DNA from: Candidatus Lambdaproteobacteria bacterium
Lineage (GTDB): Bacteria > SAR324 > JACQKK01
DNA: 42,765 bases
NCBI GenBank assembly: GCA_016204605.1
Contig: JACQKK010000208.1
Coordinates: 1 to 42,765, forward strand
Direction: 5' to 3'
Shown: in pieces, positions 10,278 through 21,773 of the stretch
Layout: every line of letters begins with the position of its first letter
Position numbering within the stretch: the first letter of the stretch is position 1
Notes under the pieces: generated by a model
The model's database searches: none
What the model was told of the DNA's origin: nothing
Seen by the model: only the letters and a program-made list of their open reading frames with translations
Program-made: the position numbers and the translations under genes

Positions 10278-11765
10278 TCAGCGTTCCTGGACGATGCGGT
10301 AGCGCAGCGTCTGGCCGGCCTTCTGCTGGGTCACCTGCGGGGACTTCCCTGCGCCCGGCACGGCCTCCAGCCTCTTGCGCAACAGCTCGGAGGCCTCGTA
10401 GCTGTCGGTGGTGCCGCTCAAGACGAGCCGGTCGGGGGTGAGGGTGAGGCTTTCCAGCGTCAGGTTCGGGAAGCCCTTGTACACTTCGGACACGGTGCGC
10501 AGGAAGGTCAGCGCGTCGTAATGGTACGTGGCGAAGCGGGCGGAGGCCTGATTCTGCTTCCGCAGCAGTTGCACCCGCTCCTCCAGCAGGCGCAGGCTCG
10601 CCGGAACCGGTCGCTGGCCCGGGGCGGCGCGGGCGAGCCGCAGCTCGAGCGCGGCCTGGGCCTGCGCCGTGCGTCCGCGCAGCGCCTGGAATCGCAGCCC
10701 CAGCCCCGTGGCCGCCACGCCCAGCAGCAGGGTCAGCAGCACCGCGGCGAGGGCCAGGGGCCGGCGCGCCTCCGCGAGCCGGCCCAGCAGCCCCTTGCCG
10801 CGGGGCAGCAGGTCGATGCCGCGCAGCGCGAGGGCCCCGTCGGCGTCGGCGGTCAGCTCGTCCATCACGCCGTAGAAGCGGCGGGCGGGCGGGATGGCGG
10901 GCGGCACGGGCGCCGGCGCGACCAGGCCCGTCGCTTGGTCCTGCCGCAGTAAGGGGGCGAACAGGCCATGCAGGGACACGGTGTGGGTCTGCCCCAGGGC
11001 ATGGGTCTGGATGAAGCGGTTCAGCTCGCCGCACAGGGCGCCGAGCTCGCCCTGCAACGCGGACCAGGCTCCGGCCGTGCCGGCCCCTTCGGCGGGCTGG
11101 CGCAACCCGGCGGCCAGGGCCGCCGCAGGCGAGCTCCACCCCGCTGCCGGGCGCTCGCCGAGCCAGCGGGCGAATACCGCCCCGAGCGGCTTGACGGCAT
11201 GCAGCGCCTCGCGCTCGACGTAGGAGACGAAGCATTCTTCCGCGCCGGCATAGACCTGGTAGTGGCGTGGGCTCGGCGCGGGTCGCGTGGCGTGCAGCGC
11301 CTGCGCGGCGAAGGTCAGCCGGAACGGCGCCAGCCGGTGGCCCCGGCACGCCTCCAGCACCCGTTCCACCAGCGGCCGCGCCATCAACGCGACGAACACG
11401 GTCGTGGCGGGGCCGTCGCCGGGCAAGAGGGCGTGGTCGTAGGCCAGCTCGTCGAGGCTTTCGAGCAGCTCGTCCTCGAGCGCGAAGGGCAGCGCCAGGG
11501 CGATCTTGCGGGGCTCGGCGAAGGGGAACTCCAGGCGCCGCACCCGGGCTTCGGCGGTGGGGAGGATGATCACCAGCGGCGCGTCGGGCAGCGCCTGCTC
11601 CGCGGCGAGGGTCTCCAGGATGCGGGGCAGCGCCACAGCGGCGTCGCCCTCGTCGGCCGCCGGGAACCAGCTCCGGCCCGGCCCAGGCTCGCCCTCGCGG
11701 CCGGCCGGGCCGGCCCATTCCGCCAATGACGGATGGAGGGTCACCACCTGGAAGGTTCGGCTCAT
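10278..11765 (-). CDS. gspL: Type II secretion protein GspL
   Basis: A 495-residue assembly-platform protein. The N-terminal cytoplasmic half is actin-like (LVIILPTAEARVRRLEFPF, KIALALPFALEDELLE, VFVALMARPLVERVLEAC) and binds GspE in known systems. A membrane helix (LALAAVLLTLLLGVAATGL) leads into a periplasmic coiled coil and a ferredoxin-like domain (YDALTFLRTVSEVY, LTLTPDRLVLSGTTDSYEA). First gene of the gsp run, 212 bases downstream of the filament-like gene at 11978. gspC, gspD and gspE are not next to it. Confidence 0.93.
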   Translation of the reverse strand: MSRTFQVVTLHPSLAEWAGPAGREGEPGPGRSWFPAADEGDAAVALPRILETLAAEQALPDAPLVIILPTAEARVRRLEFPFAEPRKIALALPFALEDELLESLDELAYDHALLPGDGPATTVFVALMARPLVERVLEACRGHRLAPFRLTFAAQALHATRPAPSPRHYQVYAGAEECFVSYVEREALHAVKPLGAVFARWLGERPAAGWSSPAAALAAGLRQPAEGAGTAGAWSALQGELGALCGELNRFIQTHALGQTHTVSLHGLFAPLLRQDQATGLVAPAPVPPAIPPARRFYGVMDELTADADGALALRGIDLLPRGKGLLGRLAEARRPLALAAVLLTLLLGVAATGLGLRFQALRGRTAQAQAALELRLARAAPGQRPVPASLRLLEERVQLLRKQNQASARFATYHYDALTFLRTVSEVYKGFPNLTLESLTLTPDRLVLSGTTDSYEASELLRKRLEAVPGAGKSPQVTQQKAGQTLRYRIVQER

Positions 11766-11977: not shown

Positions 11978-13897
11978 TTACTGGAACACCTCCTCCGCCT
12001 GTCCCGCGCCACCCTCGGCCCCGACGTCGGCCAGGCCCCCGCCGGTCTGGAATCCGCCGAGCATGTCGGCGCGCTCCGTCGAGCGGCGGCGGGAGAAGGA
12101 GGCGAACGCCGTATCCTGGAAGCCCTTGGACACCGCATAGATGAACTCGTTGAGCACGTTCGCCATGTTCATCATGGTCGAGCTCTTGCGCTTGATGGTG
12201 ACGATGTCCACCTCGAGCAGCAGCCCCGCGTTCAGGTGGAACGGATTGATCTGGGCCGAGAACCTGGCCGATTCGATCTCCAGGAAGCGGAGGCGGCTCT
12301 CCAGGATCACCCGCAGGTCGGGGTTCGTCTCGCCGAACACGTCCTCGAGCCTGGCGAACATGACGGGGAAGCGGCCCTTGACGTCGTTCATGCGCTGCTC
12401 GTAGGTCGGGTTCGCCGCCACCGACGACGCGACGTCCTTCCCGGTCACGAACGTGATCTCGTTCCAATGCCGCACCGGCTCTTCCGCGGACTCGGCCTCG
12501 CCTTCCGGCTCGCCACTGGCCAGGTTGCCGAACCAGCCGCGGCGGGCGGGTTTCTCTGCGAGCAGCCGCTTCGAGAAGGCGATCCAGTCTTCCTTGCCCG
12601 TCTGCTCGAGGTGTTCGCGGAACACGGCCTCCACCACATCGCCCACCTCGTGCACGGTGCGCTCCAGCTCCTGGAGCTGCATCGTGCAGGCATCGCGGAA
12701 GGCCTTGATCTGGGCGTTGTCCAGATAGGCCAGCTCCATCTGGTAGCGCTCGTCGGGCAGGATTTCGGCGTTGGTCTCCGCGTACTCCCGGATGATGCAG
12801 CGGCGCGCCGACTTGTAGTTCTCGATGTGCTGGTAGCCCATCCGGCTCCAGTCGAGCACGTGGGTCATCGAGTTGACGGCGGTGTTGTAGCCGCGGTTGC
12901 GGATGTTCTCGTTCTCGACGACCTTGTACACGTTCTCCCGCACGCCGAGCGCATCGTACTCGCTGCCCTTGATCTCTGCCTGAAGCCCCTCGATCGCATC
13001 GAAGATCTTCTTCGCCATGTAGGTGAAGCGGCGGGAGCCGTCGGTCTCCTCATCGGAGGTATGGTTTTCCACGGCCTTGATGCGCTCGAAATTCTGCTCT
13101 TCGGCGGTGAGCTCGGGCTTGCCCTCGTCGACCAGGGACTCGTTGATCTTCTTGACTTCGACGTCCACGGCTTCCATCACCCGGCTCGTGATGAGCTGCT
13201 TGATGATGAAGGTGACGGGCGTCTGGTGCTGATAGATGGCGCTGATCAGCTCGCTGTCGAGGATGTTCAGCGCCAGCTTGATCTCCTGCACCGTGGTGGG
13301 CTTGTCGGGCAGATCGCGGAACGAGCACTTCACGATGGCGTAGGCGTTCTCGCCGCGCACGAAGGCCCCCACGTCGGTCTTGCGGCGCAGCAGGCTGTTG
13401 GTCAGGGTCTCGAGATCGTTCACCTCGCGCTGCACGTGGCCGTGCAGGTGGCCGAACATGTTGACGATCGACTTCTCGACCTCGCTGGTGTTGAACTTGT
13501 CGGCGCCGCCGACGCGATCGAGCAGGTACGAGATCGGGCGGGGGGCATAGCGGTTGAGGCCCCGCATCTCCTCCCCATCGACCATGTCGCGCACCTTCTT
13601 GCCCAGCTCGTCCTCCGCCGTGGTGAGGTAGCGGTTGAGCATGTTCTGGAAGGTCTGGTTGTAGTAGGCGTGGAGCTTCGACTTGATCGAGCCCATCACC
13701 TCCAGGCGACTGAGGGCCTCGGGCGGCAGCTTGGCATGGATGTGGTTCAGCACCTTGTCGACTTCCTCGTCGATCATGGTGCGCGCCTCGGAGTACTCGT
13801 CGCGCTCGTGCCGATTGAGGCTGTTGCGGGAGCCCACGGCGCTAGCCGTCTCCGGGTGGATCACGTTCGGACCGTGGACAATCATGTCATCGGCCAT
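11978..13897 (-). CDS. CfpA-like cytoplasmic filament protein, paralogue 1
   Basis: A 639-residue soluble protein with no signal peptide or membrane helix; highly charged and mostly helical. I recognise it from memory as a homologue of CfpA, the ribbon-like cytoplasmic filament protein of treponemes. Blocks shared with paralogue 2 (18026-19876): AVGSRNSLNR with RDEY (19-35), FNQ/YNQ-x-FQNM-x-NRYLT (78-92), EKSIVNMFGHLHGHVQR (141-157), RGENAYAIVKCSFRD (181-195), ENVYKVVENENIRNRGYNTA (321-340), SRMGYQHIENYKSAR (351-365), LPDERYQMELAYLDNAQIK (380-398), HWNEITFV (477-484), LLLEVDIVTIKR (559-570) and VLNEFIYAVSKGF (581-593). The C-terminal tail (about 615-639) is Gly/Ala-rich and differs from paralogue 2. 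The start ATG 13895-13897 follows CAGGAGCGATGCC. Last gene of the filament cluster, separated from the dikinase-like gene by a repeat-filled gap. Coding certainty is very high; the CfpA assignment needs a profile search. Confidence 0.75.
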   Translation of the reverse strand: MADDMIVHGPNVIHPETASAVGSRNSLNRHERDEYSEARTMIDEEVDKVLNHIHAKLPPEALSRLEVMGSIKSKLHAYYNQTFQNMLNRYLTTAEDELGKKVRDMVDGEEMRGLNRYAPRPISYLLDRVGGADKFNTSEVEKSIVNMFGHLHGHVQREVNDLETLTNSLLRRKTDVGAFVRGENAYAIVKCSFRDLPDKPTTVQEIKLALNILDSELISAIYQHQTPVTFIIKQLITSRVMEAVDVEVKKINESLVDEGKPELTAEEQNFERIKAVENHTSDEETDGSRRFTYMAKKIFDAIEGLQAEIKGSEYDALGVRENVYKVVENENIRNRGYNTAVNSMTHVLDWSRMGYQHIENYKSARRCIIREYAETNAEILPDERYQMELAYLDNAQIKAFRDACTMQLQELERTVHEVGDVVEAVFREHLEQTGKEDWIAFSKRLLAEKPARRGWFGNLASGEPEGEAESAEEPVRHWNEITFVTGKDVASSVAANPTYEQRMNDVKGRFPVMFARLEDVFGETNPDLRVILESRLRFLEIESARFSAQINPFHLNAGLLLEVDIVTIKRKSSTMMNMANVLNEFIYAVSKGFQDTAFASFSRRRSTERADMLGGFQTGGGLADVGAEGGAGQAEEVFQ

Positions 13898-14311
13898 GGC
13901 ATCGCTCCTGGTGTGTAGTGATCGCGGCGCACCGCCGCCCATGCCAATCGAAATCGGTTCGCGTCGTCGCACGAGCGGCCGCCGAGGCTTACACGATCGC
14001 CAACCCGGTGCGGCGAGCCGCTCCGGCCGTCCCAAAGTCGAAGTCCCCGACTCTAACGCCGCGCCTGCCGCCCCGTCAAGGTTGGCTGCCACGCCTGCGG
14101 GCCGCCCAGGCGGATTTGCACCGTATGGAGCGGGCCTGCGGCATGCGATCCCGCAGCGGCGGGGTTCGTTCCCTCCGGCGCGCCGCGCGCCTGCTACCTG
14201 GCGCCGCGCGCCTGCGGCATGCGATCCCGCAGCGGCGGGGTTCGTTCCCTCCGGCGCGCCGCGCGCCTGCTACCTGGCGCCGCGCGCCTGCTACCTGGCG
14301 CCGCGCGCCTG
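13898..14311. other. Gap between the Cfp-like and dikinase-like genes
   Basis: 414 bases. The half nearest the filament gene (13898-14135) has no credible ORF; it may hold a promoter for paralogue 1, but no good -35/-10 pair was found. The rest is the tandem repeat array described at 14136-14329. Confidence 0.5.
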
Positions 14312-14329
14312 CTACCTGGCGCCGCGCGC
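14136..14329. repeat. Tandem 21-bp / 76-bp repeat array at the 3' end of the dikinase-like gene
   Basis: Two identical 76-bp units (14136-14211 and 14212-14287), each made of a 55-bp part plus a 21-bp part, followed by two more copies of the 21-bp part (14288-14308, 14309-14329). On the minus strand the 21-mer encodes Ala-Arg-Gly-Ala-Arg-stop, i.e. the last codons and TAG stop of the gene ending at 14312. The array is thus a local duplication of the gene terminus into the downstream gap. Not a CRISPR: there are no variable spacers. Confidence 0.9.
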
Positions 14330-16930
14330 CTTGAGCAGGTGCTGCGCCACCGCGAGCTTGGCGATCGGCACGCCATAGGGGGTGCAGGTGACGAAGTTCA
14401 GCTTGCTGCCGAACGCGAAGTTGATGTTGACGGGGTCCGAGGCATAGTTCCCGTACAGCCCGATCCGCAGATCCGGCCGCGTCATCTTGCCGAAATGGGC
14501 GGCGATCGAGATCAGCTCCTTCACCGGCATGGAGAGAATCTGGAACGGGTTGTCCTTGAGAATGTCGTACTGGGTATAGGAAGGCAGAAACAGGTTCACG
14601 TCGTCGTAAGACATCCCGTTCGTGGTCTGGGTGAGCATGTTCGCATCGATGGCGAAGAAATCCGATTGCTTCGCCAGATGGCCGGCCATCAAGGCGGCGG
14701 CCGGCATTTCGATCGCCGCGCCCAGCTTGTAGCGGAACGGGAACTCGCCCCGCTTGAGCTCCGCCAGCAGGTCCTTCTCGACGCCGCGGATGCCGCGGAT
14801 GATGGTGCCCTCGATGTTCCGCCCGTTGCGGATGAAGCGCATCTCGGCATCGCCGATGATCGCCGGCACCATCAGGTCGAAGTCGAGCGCACGCTTGCCA
14901 TCCTCGCAGTAGGCGAGCGCGCCGCGGAAAATCGCCTCCGCCTGCACCTCGTACAGCTCGGGATACGAGATGGCGATGCGGCTGCCGCGCAACCCCAGCA
15001 TGGGGTTGAGGTTGCGCAGTTGCTCGGCGCGGGCGGCGAGCGTTTCCGCCGTCAGCCCCTTGTGCTTCTTCTGCACCGCGGCGAAGAGCTGCTGCTGCTC
15101 CGCGGGCGTGTGCGGGAGAAAATCGTAGAGGGGGCTGTTGAGCAGGCGCAGCACCACCTTCTTGCCGTCGGCGGCGCGGAACAGCTCCACCACGCGCTCT
15201 TCCAGGTTCCGGGCCAGTCGCGCCAGCGCCGGCTTGCGGCTGGCCGGTTCGTTGAGCAGCAGCAGCACCTCCTGGAACAGCTCGCTGGTGCCCGGCATGC
15301 GGAGCAGGTTGTCCACGGCGTACAGGCCGATCCCCTCGGCCCCGAGCTTGAGCGCCACGTCGATGTCCTTGAAGGACTCGGCGCTGGACCACACCTGGAA
15401 GCCCGAGGTGAGGTTGGTTAGGGCGCCCATGAACTCTTCCAGGCCGTTGCTCGACGTGTCCGGATAGACGAGCTTGGCCGCGCCGAGCCACATCGTCGGC
15501 TTGGTGTAGGTCGGCACCTCGAGCGAGATCGTGTCGAATTCCTTGATGCGATGACCCCCCAGCTCGACGTAGCCGTCGTGGTACTTGACGTCCTCGTACA
15601 GCAGGCAGGGCTTGCGCAGGCTGCGGGCGACGACGGGGGCGTGCGAGGCGTACCCGCCTTCGGAGGCGATGACGGCCTTGCCGATCTCGATCGCTTCCAC
15701 ATCCGCCGCATCGGTGTGGGGCATGATCAGGATCAGATCGGGGTTGATCCCCATCAGCGAGCAGCGCCGGTACTCCTCGAGCAGCGCTTTGGTGCTGAAG
15801 GCGACCCGGGCCACCGCCGCGCCGGGGGAGCCCGCGGTGCCGCCCACGATCTTGGTCATGCCACGGGTGCTCTGGTAATCGATCACCGGGTGCAGCAGGT
15901 CCTGCAACTGGGCCGGCGGCACGGAGGTGGCCAGCCGCTCCCGGGCGATGAGCCCCTTGCGGTGCAGATCCAGCAGCGTGCGCAGCTCGGCCTGGGTGGA
16001 CTTGGCATCGACCGGGTTCTGCTCGACCAGCCAGAACGCGCTATCCTCGATCACGAACTTGATCTGGCGGATATCGAGAAACTTCTCCTCGAGCCGGCTG
16101 ACGACCTTGCGCAGCTCGTCGAGGTACTGGGCCGGCAGCTCGTTGATGTCCTTGCCGTCCTCGGGCAGCGTGTCGAACTCGTTGTGGCCGAAGTGGCCGC
16201 TCAGCCGCGGCTCGCCCGTCACGATGTCGCGCGAGTAGAAGCCGCCGTTGTAGGAGCGGTCGCCGAAGTTGCCGTAGACCATCATCTGCACGACCAGCCC
16301 GGCCTCGATGCCCTCGTTCATGGGATCGTTCAGGTACTGCTCATTGAGCCCGGCCAGCACCATGCGCAACTGCTCGTAGCCGTTCTGCGGGAAGTCGGGC
16401 AGCAGCTTCTCGCGCACCAGCTCGCACAGCTCCTTGTGGGAGGCTTTGGGCTTCGATTCCACCAGCGACTTGAAATCGCCCGCCTTCCTGCCGAGGAAGC
16501 GCACCCCGATGTTCTCCATGAAGTGCAGATACTCGTGGTACGCGAAGTCTTCCCCGCAGTACTTGGCGAAACCGGCGGCGACCGTATCGTTGATGCCCAC
16601 CGTGTGCACCGAGCGGATCGTCCCGATCTGGATCGAGGGTGACACCACGATCTTGAACAGCATGGGCCGTTCCGGGGCGTTGAAGGTCTTGCCCGTCATC
16701 TTTTCGATCTTCTTGACCTCGCCCTCGAGGTCGTTCAGCCGCAGCTCCTCCTTGAGCTTGCCGCCCGTCACCGTGGCAGACTCGATCAGCAGCCCCGGCG
16801 CGATCGGCACCCCGATCTGCGCCAGTTGCAACATGTTGCGACCCCGCAGGCCGAAGCGCTCCTGCAGGTCATCGCCTTCGAGATATGCCTGCTGATTGAA
16901 ATGAATGAGCTCGACCATCGTGCCACGCAT
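14312..16930 (-). CDS. Degenerate pyruvate phosphate dikinase-like protein
   Basis: 872 residues, the full length of pyruvate phosphate dikinase (PPDK, about 874), with all three domains. The central swivelling domain keeps the phospho-histidine motif GGYASHAPVVAR (His430). The C-terminal barrel keeps NPMLGLRGSRIAISYPELYE (642-661) and AAIEMPAAAL (Glu741). Lost residues: the PEP arginine of GIGLxRTE is Ala538 (GIGLYAVD); the Mg-binding Asp of TNDLTQ is Met765 (ANMLTQ); the catalytic Cys of GICGEHGG is Tyr826 (GLYGNYAS). In the ATP-grasp domain the VRSGA arginine segment reads KIVVSPSI (93-100), and the LQTR end reads VEQN (302-305). PEP/pyruvate chemistry is therefore unlikely; a scaffold or regulator is inferred. 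Its ATG overlaps the stop of the HPr-like gene (ATGA), so the two are translationally coupled. From memory, a ppdK gene also lies near cfpA in Treponema pallidum. Confidence 0.88.
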   Translation of the reverse strand: MRGTMVELIHFNQQAYLEGDDLQERFGLRGRNMLQLAQIGVPIAPGLLIESATVTGGKLKEELRLNDLEGEVKKIEKMTGKTFNAPERPMLFKIVVSPSIQIGTIRSVHTVGINDTVAAGFAKYCGEDFAYHEYLHFMENIGVRFLGRKAGDFKSLVESKPKASHKELCELVREKLLPDFPQNGYEQLRMVLAGLNEQYLNDPMNEGIEAGLVVQMMVYGNFGDRSYNGGFYSRDIVTGEPRLSGHFGHNEFDTLPEDGKDINELPAQYLDELRKVVSRLEEKFLDIRQIKFVIEDSAFWLVEQNPVDAKSTQAELRTLLDLHRKGLIARERLATSVPPAQLQDLLHPVIDYQSTRGMTKIVGGTAGSPGAAVARVAFSTKALLEEYRRCSLMGINPDLILIMPHTDAADVEAIEIGKAVIASEGGYASHAPVVARSLRKPCLLYEDVKYHDGYVELGGHRIKEFDTISLEVPTYTKPTMWLGAAKLVYPDTSSNGLEEFMGALTNLTSGFQVWSSAESFKDIDVALKLGAEGIGLYAVDNLLRMPGTSELFQEVLLLLNEPASRKPALARLARNLEERVVELFRAADGKKVVLRLLNSPLYDFLPHTPAEQQQLFAAVQKKHKGLTAETLAARAEQLRNLNPMLGLRGSRIAISYPELYEVQAEAIFRGALAYCEDGKRALDFDLMVPAIIGDAEMRFIRNGRNIEGTIIRGIRGVEKDLLAELKRGEFPFRYKLGAAIEMPAAALMAGHLAKQSDFFAIDANMLTQTTNGMSYDDVNLFLPSYTQYDILKDNPFQILSMPVKELISIAAHFGKMTRPDLRIGLYGNYASDPVNINFAFGSKLNFVTCTPYGVPIAKLAVAQHLLKARGAR

Positions 16931-17946
16931 CAGAAAAGATTGAGCAGCTTGTTGACATCTTTCTTGAGGAACTGCCCGAAGCGGATGCTGGCACCCTCGA
17001 ACAGGTAGCGTTGCAGCTTCGCCACGCCCTTGATCTCATCGCCCGCCACGGAGAACAGGATCACGTCGCCGTGCTTGACCTTGCCCCATTTGAATAACGC
17101 ATTGATGTTGTTGACCTTCTGCCCATCGTGGAACACGTCCACGTCCAGCCCTGCGTATTTGGCCTTGTAGCTGGCGAGAATGTTCTTCCACGCCTCGACG
17201 TTGCCGTTGTGGAACAGCTCGTTGGTCACCTGGATGCTGTACTTGGGCGTGACCTTGCGCTTGCCGCCCGCGGTGGGCGGTGGGGGCGGCGCGGCCGGCG
17301 CGGCCTGCTCCGGCTCTGCTTCCTCGGCCCGGGCCGCCGGTGCGGCGGCCGGCGCGGCCTCCTGCGCCGGCGCAGCGGGAGCGGGGGCCGGCGCGGGCGC
17401 GGCCACGGCTTTCGGGCGGGCGACGAGGGCGGGGTCGTTGAAGCGCTCGAGCCCCCGGGCATCGTGGCCGGTGAGCAGGTCGCGCAGGGCCTCGAGCGCA
17501 TCCGCTTCGAGAGCGGCATCCTCCGGCCGTACGGCTTTGGCGTAGAGCACCAGCAGCTCCTCGCGGCTCAGCTCCTGCACGCCTTCCCATTGGGCGCTCA
17601 CCTTGGGATTGATCGCGCAGATGCCGAGCTGCGGGTGGTGGTAGGCGACGATCAGATCGAGCCGGTTCCACTTGGCGGTGGTCTCCCGGATCGGATCGAA
17701 GCTCTGCACGTTCGCGGGAAGATTGAAGGACAGGCTCGCGTACTGCATCCGGTCCACGACCAACGCGTTCAGGATCGGCGCGATCTGCTGCTTTTCGACC
17801 TTCTTGCTCTTCTCCAGCTCGTCGATCAGATCGGCCAGGTTGGTGCCCTGGTTGATCTGCTCGAGGATGCCGGACACCAGGCGGAAATGGCCCAGCGACT
17901 TGTTGAAGCCGGTGCGGGTGCTGAGTGACGCGTACTCGTTGATCAT
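16930..17946 (-). CDS. Two-domain protein with a C-terminal HPr-like domain lacking the active His
   Basis: 338 residues. N-terminal domain (1-175) is helical and of no family I recognise (GFNKSLGHFRLVSGILEQIN). Residues about 176-228 are an Ala/Pro-rich flexible linker. The C-terminal domain (about 235-318) aligns without gaps to the phosphocarrier HPr: VTNEL at 240-244 matches VTNKL, ILASYKAK matches the helix-1 end, and KVNNINALFKWGKVKHGDVI (277-296) matches the HPr segment ending in VNxKSIMGxxxLG...GDxI. The phosphorylatable His of HPr (motif L-H-A-R-P) is Asn247 and the Arg is Asn249; a His sits one place earlier (246). Phosphotransfer is therefore unlikely. It starts 79 bases after the second filament gene, with an AGGAAGGGG ribosome-binding site. 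Pairing with a degenerate PPDK recalls the EI-HPr complex of the phosphotransferase system. Function unknown. Confidence 0.85.
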   Translation of the reverse strand: MINEYASLSTRTGFNKSLGHFRLVSGILEQINQGTNLADLIDELEKSKKVEKQQIAPILNALVVDRMQYASLSFNLPANVQSFDPIRETTAKWNRLDLIVAYHHPQLGICAINPKVSAQWEGVQELSREELLVLYAKAVRPEDAALEADALEALRDLLTGHDARGLERFNDPALVARPKAVAAPAPAPAPAAPAQEAAPAAAPAARAEEAEPEQAAPAAPPPPPTAGGKRKVTPKYSIQVTNELFHNGNVEAWKNILASYKAKYAGLDVDVFHDGQKVNNINALFKWGKVKHGDVILFSVAGDEIKGVAKLQRYLFEGASIRFGQFLKKDVNKLLNLF

Positions 17947-18025
17947 GGCCCCTTCCTGAGTTTCCGTACGGCAAACCGCCCCGGGCGCTCGCGGGCGGGC
18001 CCGCGCGCCGCCCGCGGTCTCGACA

Positions 18026-19876
18026 TCAGGTCGCCGCCCCCTGGTCGAACTTCTCCACCTCGCCCGTGACGTGGCTGCGGCGGTGGAACGTGGAGGCGGT
18101 GCGATCCACGAATCCCTTCGAGATGCCGCCCAGGAACTCGTTCAGCACGGCGGTAATGCCCTTCACCGTCACCCGCAGCCGCTTGATGCTGGTGATCGAG
18201 ATTTCGAGCAGCAAGCCCGGCTGGAGATGGTAGGGGTTGACCTTCGACATGAAGTCCAGGAACTGGCTTTCCAGGAAATTCAGGCGCTGCTCCAGGATCA
18301 CCCGGTGGTCCGGGAAGCCCAACTCGAAGACATCCTCGAGCTTCCGGCGCAGCGCGATGAAGCGCTGCTTGTACTCCTGGATCACGATCTCGTAGGTCTG
18401 ATTCATCTCCTCGAGCGAGGTCAGCCGGCGCTGTACGAACGTGATCTCGTTCCACTGGCGGGCCCTGGCCGGCTCCTCCTCCTCGCCGCCTGTCTGGAAC
18501 CAACTGCGGCGCTTGGCCGGCTTGTCCCGATCCACGGTCGAGCCGAGCAGGTCGTCCCAGTCGCGCCGGCCCGCCTTCTCCTTCTCCTCCCGGTACACCT
18601 GTTCGACCACCTCCCAGAGCCGGGTGATCTCGCGGCGGAACTCCAGCAGTTGCTGGGAGTAGGCGACCTGGTGCTCCTTGATCTGCCGGCTGTCGAAGTA
18701 TTGCAGGTTGATCTCGTAGCGCTCGTCGGGCAGGCGCGTGATGTCGTTCTCCTCGTATTCCTGCACCAGCAGCTTCCGGGCATGCTTGAAGTTCTGCACG
18801 TACTGGTAGCCCATCCTGCTGTTGTCGAGGATCGAGGTCAGCATGTTGATGGCGGTGTTCCAGCCGCGGGTGCGGATGTGGTTGTCGTCCAGCAGCTTGG
18901 TCACCCCTTCGCGCACGGCCAGCGGGTCGAAATCGATCTTGTTCACCTCGCCGGCCAGGCCGGAGACCCGATCCAGGAAGTGCTTGGGCAAGAGCTGATA
19001 CCGGCGCGAGCTCTCGCCGTCGGTGTCGTCGGTGTAGTTCTCGATGGCCTTGACCTTCTCGAAGATCGCCTCGTGCGGGGTCAGCGGCGGCTTGCTTTCC
19101 ACCGCGAGCTGCTGGTTGATCTCATCCACCTCGCGTTCCATCAGCGTCTGGATGTGGTTCGCGATCACGTCCTTGATGAGATGCTCGGAGAGCAACTGGT
19201 GGGGGACGATCGGGCTGATCAGCTCGGCATCGAGCACGTTGATGGCCAGCTTGACGTCCACCACCTTGTCCGGCTTGCGGTAATTGTCCCGGAACGAGCA
19301 CTTGACGACGGCGTACGCGTTGTTCCCGCGGATGAACTGCCCCACGTCCTTGTGCTGCAACAGCAGGCCGGTCGACAGGTTCTCGAACAGCGACACGCCG
19401 CGCTGCACGTGGCCCTGCAGGTGCCCCATGATGTTCACCATCGACTTCTCGACTTCGCCGGTGTTGAACAGCTCGGAACCCCCGATGTGGTTGATGAGCT
19501 CCGCGATTTCCCGGGAGGAGTAGCGGTTCAGGTTGCGGTGTTCGTCCTTGTCGACCAGATCCCGCACCTTCTTGGTCATCTCGTCTTCGACGGAGGTCAG
19601 GTAGCGGTTGACCATGTTCTGGAACGACTGGTTGAAGTAGGTGTGCAGGTATCCCTTGATGTTCCCCATCACCTGGACGTCCTGCAGCACCTCGGGCGGC
19701 AACTTGGCCTGGATGTGGTTCAGAATCTTCTCCACCTCCTCGTCGATGACGAGCCGACTCTCGACGTACTCGTCCCGACCATCCCGGTTGAGGCTGTTCC
19801 GGGAGCCGACCGCACTCGGTTCTTCCGGGTGCAGCTCGTTGGGGCCTTTCAGAAAGTCCGACTGTGCCGTGGTCAT
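18026..19876 (-). CDS. CfpA-like cytoplasmic filament protein, paralogue 2
   Basis: A 616-residue soluble, charged, mainly helical protein, collinear with the paralogue at 11978-13897. Shared blocks: AVGSRNSLNR (22-31), LPPEVLQDVQVMGNIK (59-74), FNQSFQNMVNRYLT (81-94), EKSMVNIMGHLQGHVQRG (143-160), RGNNAYAVVKCSFRD (183-197), SRMGYQYVQNFKHAR (353-367), LPDERYEINLQYFDSRQIK (382-400), QWNEITFVQRR (474-484), LLLEISITSIKRL (555-567) and VLNEFLGGISKGFVD (577-591). Compared with treponemal CfpA (from memory) the order of blocks is the same. The ATG 19874-19876 has GGAGG 8 bases upstream; an in-frame TTG five codons earlier is less likely. No membrane segment or nucleotide-binding motif is visible, so assembly would not use an actin- or tubulin-type cycle. 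First gene of the cluster. Confidence 0.75.
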   Translation of the reverse strand: MTTAQSDFLKGPNELHPEEPSAVGSRNSLNRDGRDEYVESRLVIDEEVEKILNHIQAKLPPEVLQDVQVMGNIKGYLHTYFNQSFQNMVNRYLTSVEDEMTKKVRDLVDKDEHRNLNRYSSREIAELINHIGGSELFNTGEVEKSMVNIMGHLQGHVQRGVSLFENLSTGLLLQHKDVGQFIRGNNAYAVVKCSFRDNYRKPDKVVDVKLAINVLDAELISPIVPHQLLSEHLIKDVIANHIQTLMEREVDEINQQLAVESKPPLTPHEAIFEKVKAIENYTDDTDGESSRRYQLLPKHFLDRVSGLAGEVNKIDFDPLAVREGVTKLLDDNHIRTRGWNTAINMLTSILDNSRMGYQYVQNFKHARKLLVQEYEENDITRLPDERYEINLQYFDSRQIKEHQVAYSQQLLEFRREITRLWEVVEQVYREEKEKAGRRDWDDLLGSTVDRDKPAKRRSWFQTGGEEEEPARARQWNEITFVQRRLTSLEEMNQTYEIVIQEYKQRFIALRRKLEDVFELGFPDHRVILEQRLNFLESQFLDFMSKVNPYHLQPGLLLEISITSIKRLRVTVKGITAVLNEFLGGISKGFVDRTASTFHRRSHVTGEVEKFDQGAAT

Positions 19877-20396: not shown

Positions 20397-21773
20397 TCAC
20401 GGCTGGTTCGGGTCGCCGACAGGCAGGCTCTGGGGACGGCGGGTGAGGCGGCCCAAGGGCTGCAATTCAGGCACTTCCTTCTGCGCTCCCGCACCCAGCT
20501 GCTTGAATCTGCGCGCTGTGGCGGACAACCGGGATTCAAGCGATTTCAACGCCGCATCATGCGCATCGACGGCGCTGTCGAGCGCTTTGCCGATCTTGCC
20601 GAAGTGCTCGGCCACCAGGACGATTCGATCGGACATTTCCCGGCCGAGCGCACTGATTTCTTGAGCGCCCAACGCCACGTGCTCCTGGCGCCAGCCATAC
20701 TCGATCGCCAGCAGCAGTGCGAACAGGCTGCTCGGCGTGGCGATCACGATACGTTGCCGCAAAGCCCATTCCACCAGTTCGGGGTCTCGCTCGGCCGCTG
20801 CGGACAGGAACGCGTCATTGGGCATGAACAACACCACGAATTCGAGCGAACCGGGGAACTGACTCCAGTAGGCTTTGGACGCCAAATTCTTCACGTGCTG
20901 TTTGACGTGCCCAGCGTGACGATCCAGGGCGGCGATGCGGTTGTCCTCGGTGACGGCCTCGGCGTGCTCCCGGTATGCATCGAACGGTACTTTTGAATCG
21001 ACCACGATGTCACGCCCGGCCGGCAGCCGCACCACCATATCCGGGCGCAGCCGACCATCTTCCGCCCCGACATGGACCTGTTCATCGAAATCGCAGTGCG
21101 CGGTCATACCCGCGAGTTCCACGATTCTGCGCAACTTGATCTGACCCCAGTTCCCCCGACTCTGCGAGGAACTCAGCGCGTTGGTGAGCTTCGCGGTCTC
21201 CGCGCCGAGCTGTTGCTGCCCCAGAGCGATCTGCTGCAAGTGCCGACCCAGGCTCCCCAGTTCGTTCTGCCGCTTCTGCTCCAACTCGTCGGCGGCCTTC
21301 TTGAACTCTATGACGCGATCCTGCAGGGGCTTCAGGAGCTCTCCAATGGCTTTCTGGCGCGATTCCAGGTTCGCGTTGGCACTTTCCTGCAACGCCGAGA
21401 ATTTCTGCTCGGCGAGGGCGAGGAAGCTCGCGTTGTTGCCCGCGAGCGCCTCGGTGGCCAGAGCCTTGAACGTGTCGGGGAGCCTCACCTGCGCTTGCTC
21501 GAGCTGGGTCCTCTGGTCGGCGAGGTTTTGCTCACTATTCTTCAGGCCAGTCTCGGCCTTGGCCTTGTCCGACTCCGCCTGGAGCAAGCGTTCCTGCAAC
21601 TCCTTCTTTTCGGCTCCCAGGTTGCCGATCTGGGCACGCAATTCCTCGCTCAGGGCGGCCGCGGCCTCGAAATGGGCCTTGCCGAGCCGCCAAGCCGCGA
21701 ATCCCACGAGTGCCATGCAGATCAGGGCGCCGACAATGAAGGCGATCACCGCACCCACGGAAACCTCGCCCAT
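20397..21773 (-). CDS. rmuC: DNA recombination-limiting protein RmuC
   Basis: 458 residues: an N-terminal membrane helix (VIAFIVGALICMALVGFAAW), a long coiled coil (about 35-200) and the RmuC nuclease-fold domain. Recognisable RmuC motifs: RGNWGQIKLRRIVELAGM, RPDMVVRLPAGRDIVVDSKVP split over strand and turn, FVVLFMPNDAFLSAA and RQRIVIATPSSLFALLLAI. E. coli RmuC limits inversion at short inverted repeats. ATG 21771-21773 is preceded by AAGGAGGTAAGCC, a near-perfect Shine-Dalgarno. It is the first minus-strand gene of the run but is 520 bases from the filament cluster, so it is likely a separate unit. Confidence 0.94.
   Translation of the reverse strand: MGEVSVGAVIAFIVGALICMALVGFAAWRLGKAHFEAAAALSEELRAQIGNLGAEKKELQERLLQAESDKAKAETGLKNSEQNLADQRTQLEQAQVRLPDTFKALATEALAGNNASFLALAEQKFSALQESANANLESRQKAIGELLKPLQDRVIEFKKAADELEQKRQNELGSLGRHLQQIALGQQQLGAETAKLTNALSSSQSRGNWGQIKLRRIVELAGMTAHCDFDEQVHVGAEDGRLRPDMVVRLPAGRDIVVDSKVPFDAYREHAEAVTEDNRIAALDRHAGHVKQHVKNLASKAYWSQFPGSLEFVVLFMPNDAFLSAAAERDPELVEWALRQRIVIATPSSLFALLLAIEYGWRQEHVALGAQEISALGREMSDRIVLVAEHFGKIGKALDSAVDAHDAALKSLESRLSATARRFKQLGAGAQKEVPELQPLGRLTRRPQSLPVGDPNQP

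Follow-up and report, generated by a model that had tools for sequence, protein, structure and literature searches.

Why would genes for a dikinase-like protein and an HPr-like protein lie between two genes for cytoskeletal filament proteins in a bacterium that is not a spirochaete? This question is raised by a 42,765-nucleotide contig (JACQKK010000208.1, assembly GCA_016204605.1) of Candidatus Lambdaproteobacteria bacterium, which belongs to a metagenome-assembled genome of the SAR324 lineage and is referred to here, at its full length, as the window. Four collinear genes, all preceded by a plausible Shine-Dalgarno sequence, occupy its minus strand, namely cfpA_B (19876-18026, 616 aa), HPrl (17946-16930, 338 aa), PPDKl (16930-14312, 872 aa) and cfpA_A (13897-11978, 639 aa). 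The start codon of PPDKl shares one base with the stop codon of HPrl (TGATG), the gap between cfpA_B and HPrl measures 79 bases, and that between PPDKl and cfpA_A, which holds GC-rich repeats, 414 bases. These reading frames, including the stop-start overlap, agree with a sequence-only reading of the locus, which had proposed a four-gene cytoskeletal module with two CfpA-like subunits, a pseudo-dikinase and an HPr-domain protein in a non-spirochaete. The host is indeed SAR324, and we observed that cfpA, HPrl and PPDKl form one ordered unit in both SAR324 and Spirochaetota. Judged by its residues, PPDKl (for pyruvate phosphate dikinase-like) is not a dikinase.

According to profile searches, both filament proteins are members of the CfpA family. 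Against the NCBIfam model NF040882 (cytoplasmic filament protein CfpA), cfpA_A and cfpA_B scored 733.7 and 703.4 bits over nearly the whole profile, above the curated equivalog cut-off of 500 bits. A Pfam scan, in a database without a CfpA model, gave nothing significant for either protein. The CfpA identity proposed from the letters alone was thus borne out, but the count of two subunits was not, since the genome holds a third paralogue on another contig (G000:C15:25616-27439, 913.8 bits against NF040882). All three copies are intact, and cfpA_A is approximately 48-56% identical to the other CfpA sequences compared. In Treponema denticola, cfpA mutants had no cytoplasmic filaments and showed chromosome condensation and filamentation (PMC3398590). 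By family membership, the SAR324 paralogues would also be ribbon formers. They share with the treponeme CfpA filaments the equivalog-level score and the genes downstream, and differ in their host, in the number of paralogues (three versus usually one), in the position of cfpA_A after PPDKl and in the broken phosphoenolpyruvate (PEP) site of PPDKl in the window's family.

A scan of genome contigs covered the best 80 of 340 relatives, and a systematic survey covered Spirochaetota and SAR324. Spirochaete loci carry cfpA, then HPrl, then PPDKl on one strand, with the full trio in 63 of 71 loci. Among the others, five contigs end within HPrl, one ends 580 bases past cfpA, and only two cfpA copies truly lack HPrl and PPDKl, one of them lying on a contig that also carries another cfpA with the complete trio. 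The four SAR324 families recognized here are designated f1 (the window's family), f2 (of the same taxonomic order as f1), f3 and f4. The trio order is kept in f1, where cfpA_A follows, and in part of f3, where the other paralogues lie elsewhere. According to profile, tree and synteny, the paralogue linked to the trio is always B, in both CfpA-carrying families, while A adjoins it in the window's family only. The neighbourhood expected from the sequence-only reading is therefore conserved across two phyla as a trio with paralogue B, and its fourth member, cfpA_A, belongs to the cluster only in f1. Of 218 Spirochaetota genomes, 98 encoded CfpA and 96 HPrl, with both in 94, CfpA only in 4, HPrl only in 2 and neither in 118. 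HPrl was thus present in 94/98 CfpA-positive and 2/120 CfpA-negative genomes (Fisher p = 5e-54, uncorrected for phylogeny). In SAR324, HPrl was found in 10/10 f1 genomes, 6/10 f3 genomes and 0/32 genomes without CfpA. A literature search outside which most subscription journals fell yielded no paper that connects CfpA with SAR324 or with either of the two partner proteins.

Are the SAR324 copies genuine? They could be functionless products of binning errors or of a recent transfer from spirochaetes, and indeed the SAR324 genomes are metagenome-assembled, the window's being 80% complete in 212 contigs. This explanation is hardly credible in view of the distribution of CfpA, which was detected in 20 of 52 SAR324 genomes, comprising all genomes of f1 (10/10) and f3 (10/10) and none of f2 (0/31) or f4 (0/1). 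The CfpA-bearing genomes mostly hold three copies, and those of the window's genome are free of disruption. In a quick, unrooted tree, paralogue groups united f1 and f3 copies (98% support for A and 96% for B by the Shimodaira-Hasegawa-like approximate likelihood ratio test), and spirochaete CfpA formed one separate clade with 100% support. The paralogues therefore predate the f1/f3 split, with the three groups spanning or preceding it, which argues against contamination or recent transfer. A search of viral contigs for CfpA found none. The CfpA filament, so far discussed for treponemes, is hereby extended to a second phylum, in which it is older than the split of two families.

What has become of the dikinase? 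PPDKl matches the PPDK model TIGR01828 over its whole length with 435 bits, below the equivalog cut-off of 843 bits, and aligns with maize PPDK from end to end (phmmer E = 3e-98). Its residues were tabulated in the numbering of Clostridium symbiosum PPDK. In the spirochaete homologues, the ATP site is replaced (K22 by R in 52/52 aligned sequences, R92 by V, L or I, E323 by R or K in 56/56, and Q335 by E, D or N). Conversely, the PEP site is kept, with R561, R617, D620, E745, S764, G766 and T767 present in 56/56 and N768, D769 and C831 in 55/55 aligned sequences, as is the histidine of the swivel domain (56/56). Their identity to canonical PPDK is uneven, at 23% for the ATP domain and 48% for the PEP domain. 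The six f3 proteins show a similar pattern, as the swivel histidine, R561, R617, D620, E745, G766, N768, D769 and C831 are kept in 6/6 and T767 is G in 2/6, and their ATP site is degenerate too, although R92 aligns as R in 2/6. In three f3 loci (L112, L141, L142), HPrl and PPDKl are strongly diverged with most PEP-site residues kept, the ATP domains of L141 and L142 being just 17-18% identical to canonical PPDK. For spirochaetes and f3, these patterns point to an active half-enzyme that would transfer phosphate from PEP to its own histidine, having lost the ATP half.

The window's family has gone further. K22, R92, E323 and Q335 are replaced in the window and in 9/9 f1 proteins, R561 and D769 are lost in 9/9, R617 is variable, and the swivel histidine is kept in 9/9. 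In the window itself, R561 is A, D769 is M and C831 is Y, a set that departs from the PEP site. The phospho-histidine of the swivel domain was kept in every homologue examined (His430 in the window, codon 15641-15643, minus strand, equivalent to C. symbiosum PPDK His455). The label of pseudo-dikinase given by the sequence-only reading consequently fits in that the dikinase is degenerate, but it blurs a distinction, whereby spirochaetes and f3 have lost the ATP half only, whereas f1 has lost both. Despite this decay, pN/pS (nonsynonymous over synonymous change) between f1 genera was 0.21-0.50 for PPDKl and HPrl, indicating that both are maintained genes. Compared with PPDK proper (TIGR01828; PDB 1vbg, 1dik, 1kbl), PPDKl is collinear over the full length and keeps the swivel histidine motif, but it has lost the ATP-grasp residues, in the window's family also PEP residues, and scores below the cut-off. 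The window's genome encodes a separate full-length PPDK above this cut-off (935 bits; L149, G000:C186:1-2442). The PEP site of this protein is intact, but its ATP site is altered as well (M for K22, Q for E323 and S for Q335).

The same trio occurs in the syphilis agent. A Treponema pallidum-like genome (G094, 1,139,633 bases) has the same cfpA-HPrl-PPDKl arrangement (L166, G094:C1:809500-818000), its PPDKl lying on the minus strand at 810752-813313 and scoring 608 bits against TIGR01828, also below 843. The T. pallidum cfpA gene is TP0748 (PMC2217670), and TP0746, called a glycolytic enzyme, has been described as pyruvate phosphate dikinase with nucleotides 810772 and 811414 (PMC10013896). 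From the match to this published position, we infer that the PPDKl of G094 is TP0746. The parallel with T. pallidum drawn in the sequence-only reading, a dikinase homologue near cfpA, therefore holds, and it can be enlarged by an HPrl at the position of TP0747, a gene on which our literature search returned nothing. TP0748-TP0747-TP0746 thus correspond to three genes of the window in the same order, and alignment with PPDK revealed that TP0746 has likewise lost its ATP-site residues. The T. pallidum locus differs by its full PEP site and its single cfpA, and the genome by having no counterpart to the second PPDK: a search of G094 found no other full-length PPDK-like protein and no pyruvate kinase match.

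Could PPDKl still be a metabolic enzyme, making pyruvate from PEP as TP0746 is annotated to do, and simply be co-transcribed with cfpA? The glycolytic role assigned in the literature, the intact PEP half and the need created in T. pallidum by the lack of an alternative enzyme all speak for it. We nevertheless consider it quite unlikely, as PPDKl has other residues in its ATP site, a separate PPDK scoring above the cut-off is present in 15 of the 18 trio-bearing spirochaete genomes tested, HPrl is tightly associated with CfpA, with PPDKl next in order across two phyla, and PPDKl is degenerate in f1. The loss of its ATP site makes the annotation of TP0746 as an ATP-forming dikinase doubtful, and the gene is probably misannotated. 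Recently treated as the ATP-yielding last enzyme of glycolysis, TP0746 is predicted from its residues to be unable to make ATP. If this is true, the current account of how the syphilis agent gains energy needs revision, because its genome offers neither pyruvate kinase nor another full-length PPDK.

What, then, could receive a phosphate from PPDKl? HPrl consists of an N-terminal alpha/beta domain (residues ~1-165), a low-complexity Ala/Pro linker and a C-terminal domain (residues 232-338; 17253-16930, minus strand) for which AlphaFold (overall predicted local distance difference test score, pLDDT, of 85) gave the succession strand-helix-strand-strand-helix-strand-helix. The best 20 PDB matches of the HPrl model in Foldseek were HPr or Crh proteins, with a best probability near 1 and target TM-scores of 0.50-0.66. 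An HPr fold of the C-terminal domain is thus supported by the model. The motif NELFHNGN is nearly invariant, and its His246 (codon 17209-17211, minus strand) is conserved without exception (40/40 and 18/18 sequences). This residue directly precedes the first helix (247-263), as does His15 in HPr, an equivalence drawn from secondary structure rather than superposition. HPrl resembles HPr of the phosphotransferase system (PTS), including the nitrogen PTS, by its predicted fold, its invariant histidine and the PPDKl gene beside it; it differs in the residues following that histidine, in its extra N-terminal domain and in its linkage to a filament gene. A second, short HPrl-like protein (frames of about 135-200 aa) was also noted in f1 genomes, between purH-like and ubiE-like genes. 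In the window's genome (G000:C175:1310-1594, L169) and in another (G005:C22, L170), it has lost the HPr-type histidine, which would fit a drift from catalysis to structure.

On balance, we lean towards cfpA-HPrl-PPDKl being a conserved cytoskeletal operon in which a PEP-fed relay would run from PPDKl to HPrl, with the two proteins acting as a scaffold in f1. PPDKl descends from pyruvate phosphate dikinase and would have lost the nucleotide/phosphate half-reaction. In spirochaetes and f3, it may behave as enzyme I does in the PTS, its swivel histidine accepting phosphate from PEP and donating it to the His246-type residue of HPrl, whose phosphorylation state would couple the level of PEP to the assembly, bridging or anchoring of CfpA ribbons. 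The likeness to enzyme I lies in a PEP site and a phosphorylatable histidine on one chain, a combination that the window's family lacks; the difference is that PPDKl derives from PPDK and that the place of enzyme I's HPr-binding domain is taken in it by an ATP-grasp domain that is dead. In f1, where the PEP site has decayed, PPDKl and HPrl would most likely serve, without catalysis, to bridge or anchor a filament of several subunits; alternatively, another enzyme I might charge HPrl. The transfer of phosphate, the direction it takes and any effect on CfpA are put forward here as inferences. Tentatively, we offer as a possibility the more specific proposal that a dikinase with one dead half and a protein of the HPr fold make up a PEP-driven phosphorelay dedicated to a bacterial intermediate-filament-like cytoskeleton, whose organisation it would link to the glycolytic state in Spirochaetota and SAR324, with TP0746 included as no dikinase.

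Several observations weigh against such a relay. The catalytic step cannot apply in the form proposed to the window's own family, in which the PEP site is broken. HPrl lacks the equivalents of HPr Arg17 and Pro18 (HNGN versus HxRP), its Foldseek E-values are 0.009 or worse, Pfam (including PF00381) and NCBIfam scans of HPrl found no HPr domain, and a profile-profile comparison of HPrl with five HPr rows gave a probability of 0.7%. A PDB profile search with HPrl returned chance matches only. As sequence profiles miss the kinship, we claim HPr for HPrl at the level of the predicted fold only. The CfpA model was of low confidence (pLDDT 63), its Foldseek matches were meaningless, and it appears too poor to be informative for docking. 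Moreover, 4 of the 10 CfpA-bearing f3 genomes showed no HPrl, and in two of these four (L113, G045:C133; L143, G042:C36) unrelated genes follow cfpA_B, so CfpA can, at least in these genomes, do without the partners. The CfpA_B sequences of these two loci form long end branches in the tree.

Could PPDKl and HPrl instead be purely structural pseudo-enzymes in all lineages, bridging or anchoring the ribbons, with the conserved residues as leftovers? The ATP half is dead everywhere, the PEP half is dead in f1, and the genes nonetheless persist under purifying selection. Treponemal ribbons, moreover, reportedly have bridging and anchoring components still to be assigned, to go by the title of a 2004 tomography paper by Izard that is cited in PMC3398590. 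The PEP site is, however, invariant in the aligned columns of 56 spirochaete homologues and nearly so in the six from f3, and an invariant PEP site beside a diverged ATP domain suggests that these residues are not mere leftovers. We therefore hold an exclusively structural role to be rather unlikely, while regarding it as the main rival to the relay. HPrl and PPDKl, two partner proteins now named that almost always accompany CfpA in spirochaetes, become candidates for the bridging or anchoring components of treponemal ribbons. On SAR324 with cytoplasmic filaments, our search of the literature returned nothing.

The remaining features of the locus are minor. The GC-rich direct repeats between PPDKl and cfpA_A (14130-14330, no strand) consist of 76-nt and 21/33-nt units, and the PPDKl stop codon falls inside the first of them. 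Promoter and terminator scans gave matches at chance level, with one sigma-70-like site at 14050-14079, upstream of cfpA_A. The two genes on either side (10278-11765 and 20397-21773), for a type II secretion protein resembling GspL and for RmuC, are unrelated to the trio.

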